Of a stretch of DNA of 32,421 nucleotides, positions 846 to 9,014 are shown piece by piece. Within the stretch, counting starts at the first letter, position 1; every line of letters starts with the position of its first letter. The notes under the pieces are model-generated. The model saw only the letters and a program-made list of their open reading frames with translations, made no database searches and was not told where the DNA came from. Source of the stretch: Candidatus Methylopumilus sp. (GTDB lineage Bacteria > Pseudomonadota > Gammaproteobacteria > Burkholderiales > Methylophilaceae); contig JAPLQN010000025.1 of the NCBI GenBank assembly GCA_026399645.1, forward strand, positions 1 to 32,421, in the 5' to 3' direction. Position numbers and translations under genes: made by a program.

Positions 846-1223
846 TTAAAATCCAAGACGGCCCACAATCTCCGATGGGTCTTCATCTTTAAGAAATACA
901 TATTCTCCTGCGATATCTATTTCTACCCAGTCACATGACAAGGATAAAGTTTCGAAGTTTTCATCAATGACGCAGCAATCTAGCCATTTTTTTTCGCCGT
1001 TAATCAAAACAGCTTGAAAGCCGATATCTCTCCAAGCATTCACTAAATTTTCCATATCAATTGGATTCATAGCACCATCTCTAAACAGATGCTCATCGTA
1101 CCAAACGCGAGTTCCGAGCGAAGAAGCGTGATCGATCAAGCATTGTTCCCATCCGCCAGGATATTTCTCTTCAATGGTTAATCTTCGAACAATAAAATTA
1201 ATATGCTCTAATGCGATGGCCAT
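846..1223 (-). CDS. Conserved-looking protein of unknown function (125 aa)
   Basis: I do not recognise a named family. The protein is acidic and soluble, with no signal peptide or membrane segment. It contains the stretch YPGGWEQCL near residue 21, a WYDEHLFRDGAMNP segment near 41-54, and three cysteines (C28, C83, C84); the C83-C84 pair follows a K-W-L-D. The many W, Y, C and D residues in the middle look like conserved core positions, not random coding. It is last in a minus-strand operon: its ATG follows directly on the TAA of the pseudouridine synthase, with no spacer. Translational coupling to that gene is therefore likely, but gives no specific function. Confidence 0.8.
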   Translation of the reverse strand: MAIALEHINFIVRRLTIEEKYPGGWEQCLIDHASSLGTRVWYDEHLFRDGAMNPIDMENLVNAWRDIGFQAVLINGEKKWLDCCVIDENFETLSLSCDWVEIDIAGEYVFLKDEDPSEIVGRLGF

Positions 1224-2196: not shown

Positions 2197-4038
2197 TTAT
2201 TTAAGTTTATAAACCAAGATGTTGTCACCTTCTTTAAAACCAAAGATAGAATTACCACCTGCAGCAACAGCAATATATTGCGTTCCATCAATCTCATAAC
2301 TAATAGGTGGTGCATTAACACCTGCATCAACTTTATTTGTCCAAAGTAACTTTCCAGTTTTAGCATCGTAAGCATTAAAATCCCCATTACCCTCACCCAT
2401 GAAAACAAGATTACCCTCAGTCGCTAATAAACCGCCTGTTAATGGTTGAGGTGTCTTAACTTGCCATTTAATTTTCTTACTATTTAAATCAATAGCAGAA
2501 AGTAGTCCCCATCTCTCATCTTGCGTAGGTTCGGAAGAAGCATATCTAATCGCAGGTAAATCATCACGCGCAGGCTCATCAACTAATGTGTATTTAATAG
2601 GAGCATGAATAGCTGAAACAAATGCAATTTGATTTTTTTCATCTAGGGAAGTTGGGCCCCAATTAGCACCTCCTAAAATACCCGGATATAAAACTGTACC
2701 CTCAGCTGTGGCTTTTGCAAAAAGATTTTTTTGTGGCACAAAGGATTCTGTTTTTGCCAAAAGATCGCCCGTGATACGATTGTGAATGTAATACCATCCG
2801 GTCTTACTCGCCTGACCCACCGCAGGAATCGTTTTACCATCTTTCTTATATTCAAATAATACTGGGGGGCTCGCAACATCATATCCCCATACATCATGAG
2901 GAACTTGCTGATAAAACCATTTTAATTTACCTGACGTTGCATCGAGCGCTACAAGGGAAACAGTATATAAATTGTCTCCGGGTCTTGAAATGTCATTCAT
3001 CTGCGGAGAAGGATTACCTGTACCAAAATATAAAGTATTTGCTTCTTCATCAATAGCTGGGGTGCTCCATGCTGAGCCTCCTCCATACTTCCAAGCTTCT
3101 TTATTATTTTTAAGACTTTCTTTTTCTTGCGCAATGTTACGGTTTAAAGAAATATTACCTTCAATTGTTTCTCTAAATTTACCCTCCCATCCTTCTGATG
3201 GAATCGTATCGAACTGCCAGACACGCTTACCTGTTTGAATGTTATATGCTGCCATAAATCCTGGACGCCCAAAACGACCATCCACCCCAATCACAGCGCC
3301 CATTGGTGCATCTGGTCTGGGGGTATCGACATGTAATCCATATCCCACCCCTGTAATGCCCACAATTACTAAATCTTTGTAAGTTACTGGGGCCATAGCA
3401 ATACCTACACCAGTTTGACCATAAACATCCTTTTGACTCTTGCTGTCGGACTGACTTAGTGAGTTACTACTTTCAAATTTATTATCATTATCAGCAACAT
3501 CAATATCCCAGATTTTTTTACCTGTTTTCGCATCTAAGGCAACCAGTCTTGCATCAACGGTACCTATAAAAATTTTATTACTTGAATATGCCAATCCTCG
3601 ATTTGCAGGCCCACAGCACATTCTCCAGCTATCTCTTTTTTTATGGTTATAACGCCATAACTCTTTACCTGTCTTTGCGTCTAATGCAACCACATGGTTA
3701 TGCGGAAGACTGATGAACATTACATTATTAATAACCAATGGGGATGCTTGAAATGTCGCTGGAACACCCGATTTTAATTTCCAAGCGAGTTCAAGATTTT
3801 TGACGTTATCTTGATTAATTTGAGTTAAGGTCGAAAAGCGTTGATTGGTTAGATTCTTACCATATGAAGGCCATTGCTCGTCTGAGCCAAATTTGAATGA
3901 CGGAAGCTTGGGTAGAGAAATCTTATCTAAAGACAAGGAGTCTAGGGAAATAGAATCCATAGAAGCGCAACCTGTAAATATGAGAAAAAAGATGCTTAAT
4001 AGAGCCGCTCGGATAGATTTCAACGTATACCCTTTCAA
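2197..4038 (-). CDS. PQQ-type eight-bladed propeller dehydrogenase, periplasmic lipoprotein
   Basis: Resembles the methanol/glucose quinoprotein dehydrogenases. A lipoprotein signal with C24 (IFTGC) is followed by a Ser/Leu-rich linker (26-49) and a propeller with repeats such as VALDAKTGK. Family features kept are the vicinal disulfide C141-C142 followed by NRGLAY, the TGN at 340-342, and K412 where MxaF has Arg and glucose dehydrogenases have Lys. By hand alignment the catalytic Asp of H-D-x-W-D is Gly385 (HDVWGYD), while Asp387 matches the second Asp of lanthanide enzymes. The metal-ligand Glu also aligns to Gly (near 232), beside an insertion of about 20 residues. Activity and substrate are therefore uncertain. 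No cytochrome c or mxa/xox accessory gene is adjacent. The start at 4038 is TTG; an in-frame TTG at 4023 with AAAGGG upstream would give a tighter signal peptide and may be the true start. Confidence 0.85.
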   Translation of the reverse strand: MKGYTLKSIRAALLSIFFLIFTGCASMDSISLDSLSLDKISLPKLPSFKFGSDEQWPSYGKNLTNQRFSTLTQINQDNVKNLELAWKLKSGVPATFQASPLVINNVMFISLPHNHVVALDAKTGKELWRYNHKKRDSWRMCCGPANRGLAYSSNKIFIGTVDARLVALDAKTGKKIWDIDVADNDNKFESSNSLSQSDSKSQKDVYGQTGVGIAMAPVTYKDLVIVGITGVGYGLHVDTPRPDAPMGAVIGVDGRFGRPGFMAAYNIQTGKRVWQFDTIPSEGWEGKFRETIEGNISLNRNIAQEKESLKNNKEAWKYGGGSAWSTPAIDEEANTLYFGTGNPSPQMNDISRPGDNLYTVSLVALDATSGKLKWFYQQVPHDVWGYDVASPPVLFEYKKDGKTIPAVGQASKTGWYYIHNRITGDLLAKTESFVPQKNLFAKATAEGTVLYPGILGGANWGPTSLDEKNQIAFVSAIHAPIKYTLVDEPARDDLPAIRYASSEPTQDERWGLLSAIDLNSKKIKWQVKTPQPLTGGLLATEGNLVFMGEGNGDFNAYDAKTGKLLWTNKVDAGVNAPPISYEIDGTQYIAVAAGGNSIFGFKEGDNILVYKLK

Positions 4039-5362: not shown

Positions 5363-7219
5363 ATGTCAAAATCCCTTATTGATCTTGCAAAAAAATATGA
5401 AGAAGAAGGCGATCTTGTAAGTGCTATAGAGGTTCTTACAAAAGCACTTCAAGCTAAACCTAACGATCTATTTATTCAATTAGAATTAGGGAATCTTTGT
5501 GCTTTAAACAAACAATTTGTTGATGCAGTAGAATATTTTCGAAATTCCTATATGGCTTTCAAAGATAATCTTGATATTAGAAATGCACTATGTTATTCAT
5601 TGTCAGAGCTCGGTAATGCATACCAAATACAGTCACAATTTTCATTAGCAGAAGCTTGCTTTGAAGAAGCTATTCAATACGAAAAAAATAATTGGACTTA
5701 TTATTACAATTTAGCCAATGCAAAAGATAAACTTCAAAAGAGAGATGAGGCTTATCAATGCTACCAAAAAGCATTAAATCTTAACGATGAGGATGCTGAC
5801 CTCTGGAACAATTTAGGTAATGCAGAGCGTGAATTAGGTCACTTAGATAAAGCCGTAGCCTCTTATGAGCGCGCATTGTCTATCAATCCCCTCTTGTTCC
5901 ACGCTTACCTTCATCTCGCCCATCAAAAACAGCACATGTGTGATTGGCATGGGATTGATCAGCTTTTTCAAAAAATATGCTCTATTGTGAATACAAATCC
6001 CGAAGCGCTCATTTCCCCGTTCGCTTTTATTTCAAATCCATTCTCTTCATCTCAAGAGCAAATGGTATGTGCAAATCAGTGGACGCAAAATCACTACAAA
6101 GCCCAGTCATTCCAAAAAGGCAAATGGAAAAGAAAAAATAAAATCCGTATTGGGTATTTGTCATCAGACTTTAAGTTACATCCCTTATATTTTTTAATAC
6201 GCGACGTTATTAAATATCACGATCGTGATATTTTTGATATTTACGCTTACGATTCGACCCCAAGCGAAAATACAAATGAACGAACTACACTTATTGGTTT
6301 ATTTGATCATTATCGTGATATCTCATGTACCAATGATGTAAGCGCTGTGACTCTTATCAATCATGATGAAATTGACATATTGATAGATTTAACTGGTTAT
6401 ACAAATAACAGTCGAGCATTTATTGCTCCACAACTTAAAAACACAATCACTATCAATTGGCTTGGTTACCCCGGCACAATGGGTTTTACAGGAGAAAAAT
6501 CACTTTATGAATTTATCTTGGCTGATGATTTTATTATCCCTGAAGCGGATGAAAAATATTATGCAGAATCTATTCTAAGACTTCCCTTTGCCTATCAACC
6601 GAATATAGAAAATCGTAGCCAATCGAATGATAAAAATCGGCAAGATTATGGCATTCCTTCAGACGCTTTTGTATATTGCGCTTTTAATCAATCGTTCAAA
6701 ATTACAGAAGCCATATTCAAAGCCTGGCTTACGCTTTTACAAAAATATCCAAAAAGCATTCTCTGGTTAACGCATTCCAATACATGGGCTTCAGATCAAC
6801 TAAAAAGGTTTGCGGAGACACATAGTATTAAATCTGAAAGAATTATTTTCGCAACACGCGTTCCTAATGAGGAACATATTGCTCGCCATGCCTTAGCAGA
6901 TATTTATTTAGATACCCTGCCTTATAACGCTCACACTTCAGCCAGCGATGCCTTATCTATGAATTTACCAATTGTTACACTTAAGGGTAAAACATTCCCT
7001 TCAAGAGTGGCAGGAAGCTTACTTCATAGCTTAAATCTAGATGAGCTAATTACAGAGGATATTGAAAGCTATATTCGATGCGCTTCTAAGCTCACTGAAG
7101 ATTTAATATATAGACAAGACTTAATTCAGAGACTGAAAGAAGCCAAATCAAGTTCACCAAATTTCCAGCCGCGTTTATTTGTAAAAAAATTGGAAAGTAT
7201 CTACCAAGAAATTATTTAA
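5363..7219 (+). CDS. TPR protein with OGT/SPINDLY-type glycosyltransferase domain (GT41)
   Basis: Predicted to transfer a sugar from a nucleotide sugar to Ser/Thr of a protein. The 618-aa protein has about five tetratricopeptide repeats (3-200), then CDW (193-195) and a GT41 catalytic region (258-615). Residues matching the OGT active site are H273 in SSDFKLHPL, K446 in FNQSFKI, and the NAHTSASDAL segment (H524) followed by SRVAGSLL. The donor could be UDP-GlcNAc or another sugar; the sequence does not decide. No signal peptide or membrane segment, so it is cytoplasmic. It shares an operon with mnmC (8-bp gap). Flagellin or another surface protein is a common partner of bacterial homologues, but none is encoded nearby. 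Its TAA overlaps the stop codon of the convergent EamA gene within TTAA at 7216-7219. Confidence 0.88.
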   Translation: MSKSLIDLAKKYEEEGDLVSAIEVLTKALQAKPNDLFIQLELGNLCALNKQFVDAVEYFRNSYMAFKDNLDIRNALCYSLSELGNAYQIQSQFSLAEACFEEAIQYEKNNWTYYYNLANAKDKLQKRDEAYQCYQKALNLNDEDADLWNNLGNAERELGHLDKAVASYERALSINPLLFHAYLHLAHQKQHMCDWHGIDQLFQKICSIVNTNPEALISPFAFISNPFSSSQEQMVCANQWTQNHYKAQSFQKGKWKRKNKIRIGYLSSDFKLHPLYFLIRDVIKYHDRDIFDIYAYDSTPSENTNERTTLIGLFDHYRDISCTNDVSAVTLINHDEIDILIDLTGYTNNSRAFIAPQLKNTITINWLGYPGTMGFTGEKSLYEFILADDFIIPEADEKYYAESILRLPFAYQPNIENRSQSNDKNRQDYGIPSDAFVYCAFNQSFKITEAIFKAWLTLLQKYPKSILWLTHSNTWASDQLKRFAETHSIKSERIIFATRVPNEEHIARHALADIYLDTLPYNAHTSASDALSMNLPIVTLKGKTFPSRVAGSLLHSLNLDELITEDIESYIRCASKLTEDLIYRQDLIQRLKEAKSSSPNFQPRLFVKKLESIYQEII

Positions 7220-8076
7220 TTTTTCGCAGAAAGAATCACACCAGCAATAATTAAAATTCCTCCTAGCCACTCTTTAAGTGCAATACTTTCACCTACAAGA
7301 AAATAAGATGAAATTGCAGCAACCACAATTTCAAATAGAAAAAAACTAGACGCTTCCACTGCTTTAATTTGCGTGACACCAAATTGCACAAGCAAAGTTG
7401 ACAAAAATAAGCTTAATGCAATCACCATCATAATCGCAGTATCAACTGGCCTGAAAAAATCTAATGTTGGCATAGCATTTTTATCAAACATGATGCATAT
7501 CATGGCTACTACGATCACACCAAGCCAAATTGCTAATGCTTTTTGATTGACTGTCATGTGTGCATGTTTCCTTGTCATCACATTAGTAATTGCAAAACCT
7601 AAGCCGGAGCTAAGAGCTAACCAATCACTCTTCGAATCTAAATGAATGAGATAACCCGGCTCCCAAAACATAATAAAAGCCCCAATAAGAGAAATGAAGA
7701 CAGCGATGTAATGACGTTTTTGCGTATCTTCATTAAGCATAAAATGTGCTAAAAAAATAGTCCAAACGGGGGAGAGATAAAATAAGAGCATGACACGCAC
7801 AACTTCTCCATCGATGACAGCGAGGACATAACTAATATTTGTATAACCTGCAACAAGAGCAAGAAGCCAAAAATCTTTTGACCATATAGGGACCTTTTTC
7901 TTAGTTATAAAAAAATAAGGCAGCGCTATGGCAATCGTCAAAATAAACACATAAAAACTGGAATAAATACCAGAAACTCCCGCATCTGCCATTAAGCGAT
8001 AGGGATACCAAATGATTCCCCAGACAAAAGCTCCAAAAAGGAGAGAAAATATCGGCAGCCAAGATTTAATCTTCAT
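7216..8076 (-). CDS. EamA/DMT-family transporter
   Basis: An inner-membrane permease of the drug/metabolite transporter superfamily: 286 aa, about ten hydrophobic segments, and two EamA repeats (roughly 8-137 and 150-285). The first begins with FGAFVWGIIWYPYRLM, the typical helix 1 with a WG pair, and the second ends in FFLFEIVVAAISSYFLVGE, where the Glu-bearing turn is characteristic. Substrate cannot be told; relatives export amino acids, nucleosides or other metabolites. The start ATG overlaps the miaA stop by one base (TAATG), so it is the last gene of tsaE-amiC-miaA-eamA. Its stop overlaps that of the convergent glycosyltransferase. Confidence 0.9.
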   Translation of the reverse strand: MKIKSWLPIFSLLFGAFVWGIIWYPYRLMADAGVSGIYSSFYVFILTIAIALPYFFITKKKVPIWSKDFWLLALVAGYTNISYVLAVIDGEVVRVMLLFYLSPVWTIFLAHFMLNEDTQKRHYIAVFISLIGAFIMFWEPGYLIHLDSKSDWLALSSGLGFAITNVMTRKHAHMTVNQKALAIWLGVIVVAMICIMFDKNAMPTLDFFRPVDTAIMMVIALSLFLSTLLVQFGVTQIKAVEASSFFLFEIVVAAISSYFLVGESIALKEWLGGILIIAGVILSAKN

Positions 8077-9014
8077 TAAAGTCTAGCCTTTACGAAAGTA
8101 ATGACTTCTTTACTTATGAAGTCATTTGAACAATCAAATAGATTAAGATTTTCCATGCTCCTCATCCAAGTCATTTGCCTTTTTGCCAGCTGTCGTGTTG
8201 CAAAGATAATCTTATCGATACATTCTTTTTCTTTAATGCCCCCACTAAAGTACTCAAGGGTTTGACGATATCCCACTGATCTCATTGATGGCATATGGCT
8301 TTGAAGTGTAGAATATTTTTGAAGTAAAGATCTCACCTCTTCAAATAAGCCGGCCTCTATCATTTCATGAACTCTAAACTCAATTCGCTGATGAAGAATT
8401 TTTCTGCTGCTTGGCATAAGCCCTAATTTACAGACTGAAAATGGGAATACATCTTTATTTTCTGATTGATGATAAGAAGATAGAGGTTTTCCTGAAGAGT
8501 AAAAAACTTCTAAAGCACGACTAATGCGCTGGGCATCATTAGGGTTTAACTTTTCTGCTGTTTCTTTGTCAACGGATTTAAGCTTTTCATAAAGCTTCGG
8601 CCAGCCGACATGACTCGCTTCTATTTCTATATCTTTTCGAAACTGCTCATCAGTCATAGGCATTTGATTAATGCCTTTTTCAAGACCATTGAAATACATC
8701 ATAGTGCCTCCGACAAGGAGTGGAATATGGCCACGCATTAGAATTTCATCAATAAGCTTTAAAGCATCTTGCGTAAATTGCGCTACAGAATAGGTCTCGT
8801 TAGGCTTTATGATATTAATAAGGTGATGAGGTGCCTTATCTAGAATATCTTGAGATGGTTTAGCTACACCAATATCCATGTCTTGATATATTTGTGCTGA
8901 ATCAACACTAATAATTTCAAAAGGGAATGTGTTGACAAGCTCAACAGCAAGATTAGTTTTGCCTGAAGCTGTAGGACCTATCAAAAAGAAAACAACTGGC
9001 TTCTCTATAGCCAT
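8076..9014 (-). CDS. miaA: tRNA dimethylallyltransferase
   Basis: Adds the isopentenyl group of dimethylallyl-PP to N6 of A37 in tRNAs reading UNN codons, giving i6A. The 312-aa protein has the P-loop GPTASGKT (13-20), the substrate motif VDSAQIYQDMDIG (about 37-49) followed by AKP, HHLI near 63-66, and GGTMMYF near 102. In most homologues the text after DIG is TAKP; here it is VAKP, a mild change. It lies 3 bp behind the amidase gene. Together with tsaE, the first gene of the same operon, it places two position-37 tRNA modification functions in one transcript. Confidence 0.97.
   Translation of the reverse strand: MAIEKPVVFFLIGPTASGKTNLAVELVNTFPFEIISVDSAQIYQDMDIGVAKPSQDILDKAPHHLINIIKPNETYSVAQFTQDALKLIDEILMRGHIPLLVGGTMMYFNGLEKGINQMPMTDEQFRKDIEIEASHVGWPKLYEKLKSVDKETAEKLNPNDAQRISRALEVFYSSGKPLSSYHQSENKDVFPFSVCKLGLMPSSRKILHQRIEFRVHEMIEAGLFEEVRSLLQKYSTLQSHMPSMRSVGYRQTLEYFSGGIKEKECIDKIIFATRQLAKRQMTWMRSMENLNLFDCSNDFISKEVITFVKARL

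Follow-up and report, generated by a model that had tools for sequence, protein, structure and literature searches.

In the genome of a Candidatus Methylopumilus species we find a gene for a protein of the quinoprotein fold in which the catalytic aspartate is replaced by glycine, and comparison with its relatives demonstrates that the change is genuine, shared throughout its clade and under strong constraint. In this clade, the PQQ/metal site lacks three acidic residues and the PQQ-pocket positions are retained. Judging from the sequences, the protein is probably not a canonical metal-dependent, cytochrome-linked dehydrogenase, and the best explanation, which we hold tentatively, is that an old, single clade has given up canonical metal-dependent dehydrogenase chemistry, has kept its PQQ pocket and may serve in PQQ binding. 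The protein, which occurs in freshwater methanol-eating bacteria, resembles a PQQ-dependent alcohol dehydrogenase but probably deals with PQQ differently.

The gene, its start codon and the substituted motif

The minus-strand frame at positions 2197-4038 of the window (i.e., the whole stretch of DNA that was analysed, 32,421 nucleotides in length) translates to ...QQVPHDVWGYDVASPP... and amounts to 613 amino acids if counted from TTG 4038 or to 608 amino acids if counted from TTG 4023. Residue numbers given here are those of the initial annotation, which counted from TTG 4038. The likelier start, however, is TTG 4023-4021, since AAAGGG is located 6 nt upstream of it and two close relatives carry a stop codon directly ahead of codon 2 (L033) or codon 5 (L038). 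Identity is 98% to the protein of a Methylophilaceae genome and 95% to that of Ca. M. universalis (L032), the closest relative that has a species name; the source assembly of the window is a draft of 1.2 Mb in 98 contigs.

For comparison, an alignment of 91 rows was used, in which near-copies are present and the window's protein appears twice (as query and as L001). In preparing the family alignment, matches spanning fewer than 340 residues were omitted, and 12 of 86 sequences whose last 500 residues were the same as those of another were dropped. Rows were grouped by the presence of a second insertion at about residues 231-253, not by Gly385, giving 65 rows with this insertion and 26 without it. 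The gene and its motif have the following features.

2200-4038, minus strand: quinoprotein-fold gene, lipoprotein-like in the window (translation; Pfam, NCBIfam and phmmer searches; start analysis; fold match)
4021-4023, minus strand: likely start codon TTG (AAAGGG at 4035-4030, 6 nt upstream)
3967-3969, minus strand: lipobox-like Cys24 (IFTGC-A; from the sequence)
2884-2886, minus strand: Gly385 (GGA), replacing the catalytic Asp (G in 65/65 insertion-bearing rows)
2878-2880, minus strand: Asp387 (GAT), where XoxF carries its lanthanide Asp (D in 65/65 insertion-bearing rows)

A lipobox-like pattern was obtained for 36 of 57 insertion-bearing rows with a loose expression that missed some cases and wrongly admitted others, and some insertion-bearing members show no lipobox.

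The motif HDVWGYD lies at window positions 2898-2878 on the minus strand and was also located at G000:C78:2878-2901. When the protein was aligned with solved structures by phmmer, HDVWGYD was paired with NDAWDF of ExaA (1flg), with HDGWDF of PedH (6zcv, 6zcw) and with GDSWDF/GDNWDY of two quinohaemoprotein alcohol dehydrogenases (1kv9, 1kb0). In each of these five alignments, the residue paired with Gly385 is the W-D Asp of the solved structure; the MxaF numbering and roles of Asp303 and of position 305 are given in PMC9291206. The initial annotation had placed glycine at the catalytic Asp position and Asp387 at that of the lanthanide Asp, and both assignments hold up: related genomes keep the two residues in every one of the 65 insertion-bearing rows, which is why the shared pair is not a matter of chance. 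Homologues of the HDVWDYD type, named beforehand as counter-evidence, did not turn up among the insertion-bearing rows, WDYD being found in 0 of 65. Among the 26 rows without the insertion, Asp385 is present in 24, and the remaining pair, L046 and L074, belong to the Gly clade but are truncated.

In a first tree, calculated with the insertion and motif columns removed from 76 of the 91 rows (five fragments, the window copy and nine near-copies were omitted), the Gly rows are all on one side of one branch (SH-aLRT 99). A second tree of 58 rows, with the trait columns removed and further rows dropped by hand for speed, gave the same arrangement (bootstrap 100, SH-aLRT 99); both trees drew long-branch warnings, and the row placed with least certainty is L070's divergent copy. 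Codon 385 reads GGC in 30, GGT in 15, GGA in 10 and GGG in 2 of 57 distinct motif strings, and one base change suffices to revert GGC or GGT to Asp. Between the window's gene and five relatives dN/dS was 0.027-0.049, the ratios of four of the five pairs being rough (dS > 1), and in the pair of window and L032 it was 0.031, against values of 0.069, 0.181 and 0.160 for three genes of the neighbourhood. If the protein were an ordinary dehydrogenase whose codon 385 had been misread in sequencing or had changed in one strain alone, a single-base change, GAT/GAC to GGT/GGC, would be enough to turn Asp into Gly, but this explanation, which has practically no chance of being correct, is refuted by Gly385 in 65/65 insertion-bearing rows, by the use of all four Gly codons and by dN/dS of 0.03-0.05.

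Two nearby Gly-clade paralogues occur in one genome on L099 (6462-8630 and 10530-12992), and the divergent first paralogue (6462-8630) has Phe at the His236 and Ile at the Trp324 position.

Metal site, PQQ pocket and insertions

Further features of the protein, with counts of alignment rows, are these.

3748-3750, minus strand: Gln97, Glu in active relatives (Q in 64/64 insertion-bearing rows; E in 23/24 rows without the insertion)
3613-3618, minus strand: Cys141-Cys142, vicinal disulfide position (Cys142 in 61/64 rows; absent from L116-L118)
3418-3483, minus strand: first insertion, about residues 186-207, variable (alignment; pLDDT below 50)
3280-3348, minus strand: second insertion, about residues 231-253, GYGLHx[D/E] (alignment)
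3333-3331, minus strand: His236 (kept in 64/65 rows)
3327-3325, minus strand: Asp238 (Asp/Glu in 64/65 rows)
3274-3276, minus strand: Arg255, aligned to the metal-ligand Glu (R in 49/65 rows)
3067-3069, minus strand: Trp324 (GGGSAW; W in 64/65 rows)
3013-3015, minus strand: Asn342 (TGNPSP), retained metal-ligand Asn position (N in 65/65 rows)
2803-2805, minus strand: Lys412 (SKTG; K in 65/65 rows; without the insertion K in 16 and R in 10 of 26)

We take the position of Gln97 to be that of MxaF Glu55 and Trp324 to be the PQQ-stacking Trp, and Lys412 presumably stands at the place of the MxaF Arg331-type residue. Other pocket positions are kept without exception, R147, T160 and D162 in 64 of 64 rows and W460 and H478 in 65 of 65; the PQQ-pocket roles of R147, T160, D162, W324, N342, K412, W460 and H478 are assumed to carry over from MxaF. 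The earlier statement that Cys141-Cys142 and the TGN of the metal site remain is in agreement with these data (Asn342 in all 65 rows, Cys142 in 61 of 64). In L116-L118, which belong to another class of the phylum, IFGPP is found instead of xCCGP, and GYGLHxE and WGYD are kept.

About 23 residues long, the second insertion separates Thr229-Gly230 from Gly254-Arg255, at the place of the SG-x-E of active enzymes, which contains the metal-ligand Glu. An alignment of the metal-ligand Glu with Gly232, as initially proposed, is unsupported, since our alignment places the lost Glu of SG-x-E at position 255. There, the 65 insertion-bearing rows read R in 49, L in 4, N in 4, Q in 3, G in 3, E in 1 and K in 1; of 25 insertion-free rows, 23 have Glu. 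The proposed tie between an insertion of about 20 residues and the loss of the metal Glu is sound, as the two go together in the alignment. At positions 236 and 238, the sole exception is one and the same row, the divergent copy of L070 (262-2430) with Phe236 and Gly238.

The protein matched the PQQ dehydrogenase propeller of Pfam (PF01011) with 341.3 bits (cut-off 26.7). Two AlphaFold2 models had mean pLDDT values of 73.0 and 77.8, with the insertion and the motif loop at low confidence in both, and the second of them gave a fold match of Z 39.3 to 1yiq (rmsd 2.3 over 484 residues). With the methanol/ethanol dehydrogenase family TIGR03075 (PedH, ExaA, XoxF, MxaF), the window's protein has in common the propeller fold, the vicinal Cys-Cys, the Trp floor, the metal-ligand Asn of TGN and the Asp at the lanthanide position. 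It differs from that family in having Gly for the catalytic Asp, Gln for the pocket Glu, no metal-ligand Glu, two insertions of about 20 residues each and no cytochrome neighbour, and its score of 425.7 bits is below the curated cut-off of 480.05. Likewise, the D-x-D of the XoxF/PedH type reads G-x-D here, the second Asp (Asp387) being present and the first absent. PQQ dehydrogenases are recognised in genomes by their fold and the D-x-D motif; for a protein with the fold and the second Asp that lacks the catalytic one, a homology-based label such as 'methanol/ethanol dehydrogenase' would probably mislead.

Distribution, PQQ synthesis and gene neighbours

In the Methylophilaceae, the gene was present in 51 of 60 genomes searched, split or fragmentary copies counted, and absent from nine. 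Carriers gave E values of about 1e-169 or better and non-carriers 5.6e-57 or weaker, or no match, and the motif was read in all 51 carriers except where a copy was the same as one already in the list. The window's genus, a streamlined freshwater one, has the gene in all 16 genomes searched, and 6 of 40 other genomes of the order have it too. In a sample of the phylum, 7 of 398 genomes match at E 1e-60, namely the window's genome, five Gly-clade members of another class, probably Alphaproteobacteria, and one sister-type genome (G209); the distant carriers are related, 4 of the 5 sharing one genus label.

Split genes consisting of two overlapping frames were encountered in Methylobacillus caricis (L043 5875-7699, the same as L073 536-2360) and in M. 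glycogenes (L046 5980-7798), and G025 and G056, which bear the genus label of M. caricis, gave no sign of an orthologue. In the genus of M. caricis, the gene seems to be undergoing decay. A tblastn scan of viral contigs for a Gly-clade homologue gave none, and one pattern search for it returned nothing; an exact PHDxWGYD match in viral L120 was found not to be a homologue. The IMG/VR contigs L133-L137 encode a methanol dehydrogenase of the XoxF type that is 74-76% identical to a XoxF-type protein of Methylophilaceae, viral L139 (2282-4186) encodes an ExaA-like quinoprotein and viral L140 (11113-13818) a PQQ protein with CxxCH at its end.

The question of pqq genes, raised in the initial annotation, is answered for most carriers: pqqB exceeded its cut-off in 54 of the 62 genomes that carry the gene, and the eight without it are drafts of 54-94% completeness. 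The window's own genome is one of these eight and holds a pqqB end at a contig edge. Eight of the nine non-carriers in the Methylophilaceae also have pqqB over the cut-off, so that within the family the association with pqqB is empty as an argument for or against PQQ binding, and the gene must be dispensable for PQQ use as such. Outside the family, pqqB was detected in 5 of 24 genomes of the order that were tested, including all 4 carriers among the 24, and in the phylum sample in 70 of 398, including all 5 carriers other than the window's genome; 65 of the 70 pqqB genomes are without the gene. A search for XoxF within the genus was positive in 11 of 16 genomes, and the window's draft assembly gave none. 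For pelagic forms of these freshwater bacteria, XoxF4-1 is the sole methanol dehydrogenase named in the study PMC6794327.

The nearest group outside the Gly clade, according to the first tree, consists of 12 rows with HDVWDLD. This sister clade resembles the Gly clade in its CCGP, GNPSP and GKTG motifs and differs in keeping the Glu, the catalytic Asp and the lanthanide Asp and in lacking the insertion. A cytochrome c gene with two CxxCH adjoins the gene in 10 of 11 sister loci examined, and the sister clade therefore looks like a cytochrome-linked dehydrogenase. In contrast to those 10 of 11 HDVWDLD genes, a same-strand CxxCH within 1.2 kb was found beside 0 of 36 Gly-clade genes, in a scan of non-independent loci in which the L163 stretch ends 0.8 kb past the gene and the sister-type L044 was left out. 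The Gly clade has lost, or never had, the arrangement with a neighbouring cytochrome.

Of 264 matching plasmid records, four were inspected at the motif and none of these four was a Gly-clade member, H6, H10 and H12 being of the sister type and H39 (Streptomyces) reading WDYD. Sister-type plasmid examples are annotated as 'PQQ-binding-like beta-propeller repeat protein' in Alloyangia (L142) and Caballeronia (L143) and as 'PQQ-dependent dehydrogenase, methanol/ethanol family' in Paraburkholderia (L141).

In the window, the gene is flanked by an mnmC-like gene on one side and a pseudouridine synthase gene on the other. A conserved operon was considered and rejected, as nothing was widely recurrent among the 22 stretches compared; mnmC-like, TPR and transporter genes recur beside the gene within the genus and also in L095 and L102, which come from other genera, and L094 and L106 have a different neighbour block in common. 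Adjoining the pseudouridine synthase gene, a genus-conserved frame of 125 amino acids (846-1223, minus strand) was matched by neither Pfam nor NCBIfam models at the limits applied.

Possible functions of the protein

The initial annotation had offered a choice between a rebuilt active site and a PQQ-binding or structural lipoprotein without dehydrogenase activity. Its premises stand, except for Gly232, and the choice leans to PQQ binding, with the near-invariant His236, Asp/Glu238 and Asp387 keeping the rebuilt site under consideration. The missing cytochrome neighbour, the change from Glu to Gln97 and the common Arg255 make us lean to PQQ binding without canonical catalysis, and the clade-wide trait in 65 of 65 insertion-bearing rows, its place on one branch of the tree, the kept pocket positions, the dN/dS values and the carriers with pqqB count for it as well. 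Without the canonical set of Ca/Ln ligands, PQQ would be bound in the absence of the usual metal, charge balance might fall to Arg255 together with the loss of negative charges, and the insertion (GYGLHx[D/E]) would close over the pocket. The protein, in this genus anchored by a lipid, would act beyond the inner membrane in holding, delivering or sensing PQQ, and it would have no role as a cytochrome-linked alcohol dehydrogenase.

In PqqU, a cationic side chain (Lys274) is located at the metal place beside PQQ according to PMC12124388, which makes Arg255 a reasonable stand-in in those members that have it. The same paper describes that unbound PQQ is lost by diffusion, and we may guess that a role in holding or delivering PQQ fits this loss and the lipoprotein signal. 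Several observations count against a PQQ-binding role: His236, Asp/Glu238 and Asp387 vary as little as one would expect of catalytic residues, Arg255 varies, the gene is absent from most pqqB genomes of the phylum sample and its distant carriers are related, and the product of a solitary gene can draw on a cytochrome from another locus. The clade offers a natural test of what remains possible for a quinoprotein stripped of base and metal ligands, and it is a candidate for the keeping and hand-over of PQQ outside the inner membrane. Among the matches listed in the open-licence literature (titles and starts of abstracts) there was no quinoprotein clade without the catalytic Asp, and we do not claim its absence from print.

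A rebuilt, active quinoprotein oxidoreductase is a possible though doubtful alternative. Here, the insertion would bring His236 and Asp/Glu238 into the pocket, His236 (with or without Asp387 as a dyad) or Asp387 would serve as the base, and the site would be metal-free or else bind a metal anew through Asn342, Asp387 and Asp/Glu238. Such a site would account for the conservation of His236 and of Asp/Glu238 (64/65 rows each) and of Asp387 and Asn342 (65/65 rows each) and for the location of the insertion at the metal-ligand loop, and L116-L118, which are without Cys-Cys, still have GYGLHxE and WGYD. In soluble glucose dehydrogenase, a His serves as the base alongside PQQ. However, CxxCH was found beside 0 of 36 Gly-clade genes, the insertion is modelled at low confidence so that its contact with PQQ is only putative, and the copy of L070 at 262-2430 has Phe236 and Gly238. 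A specific version, a metal-independent quinoprotein in which His236 and Asp/Glu238 of the insertion replace the Ca/Ln site, His and Asp387 form the base and Arg255, where present, stands in for the metal, we consider unlikely.

That the protein is a cofactor-free scaffold, a propeller serving as a BamB-like platform for protein binding without PQQ, appears quite improbable. Like BamB, it is a propeller that is lipoprotein-like in this genus, and the NCBIfam family TIGR04528 (acido-empty-quinoprotein group A), a quinoprotein-type propeller thought to be PQQ-independent by its NCBIfam name alone, does match, but with 330.1 bits it stays below the curated cut-off of 650, and carriers of the Gly clade make PQQ. 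The notion of a structural lipoprotein, part of the initial annotation, is weakened, since pocket positions are conserved and some members have no lipobox. BamB has no PQQ pocket, whereas the PQQ-pocket positions are conserved here. The score for BamB (TIGR03300) amounted to 92.9 bits (curated cut-off 285.2), and BamB-type propellers match the fold of the second AlphaFold2 model at a lower Z, 29.5 for BamB 4xga compared with 39.1 for PedH 6zcw, which places the PQQ enzymes about 10 above BamB.
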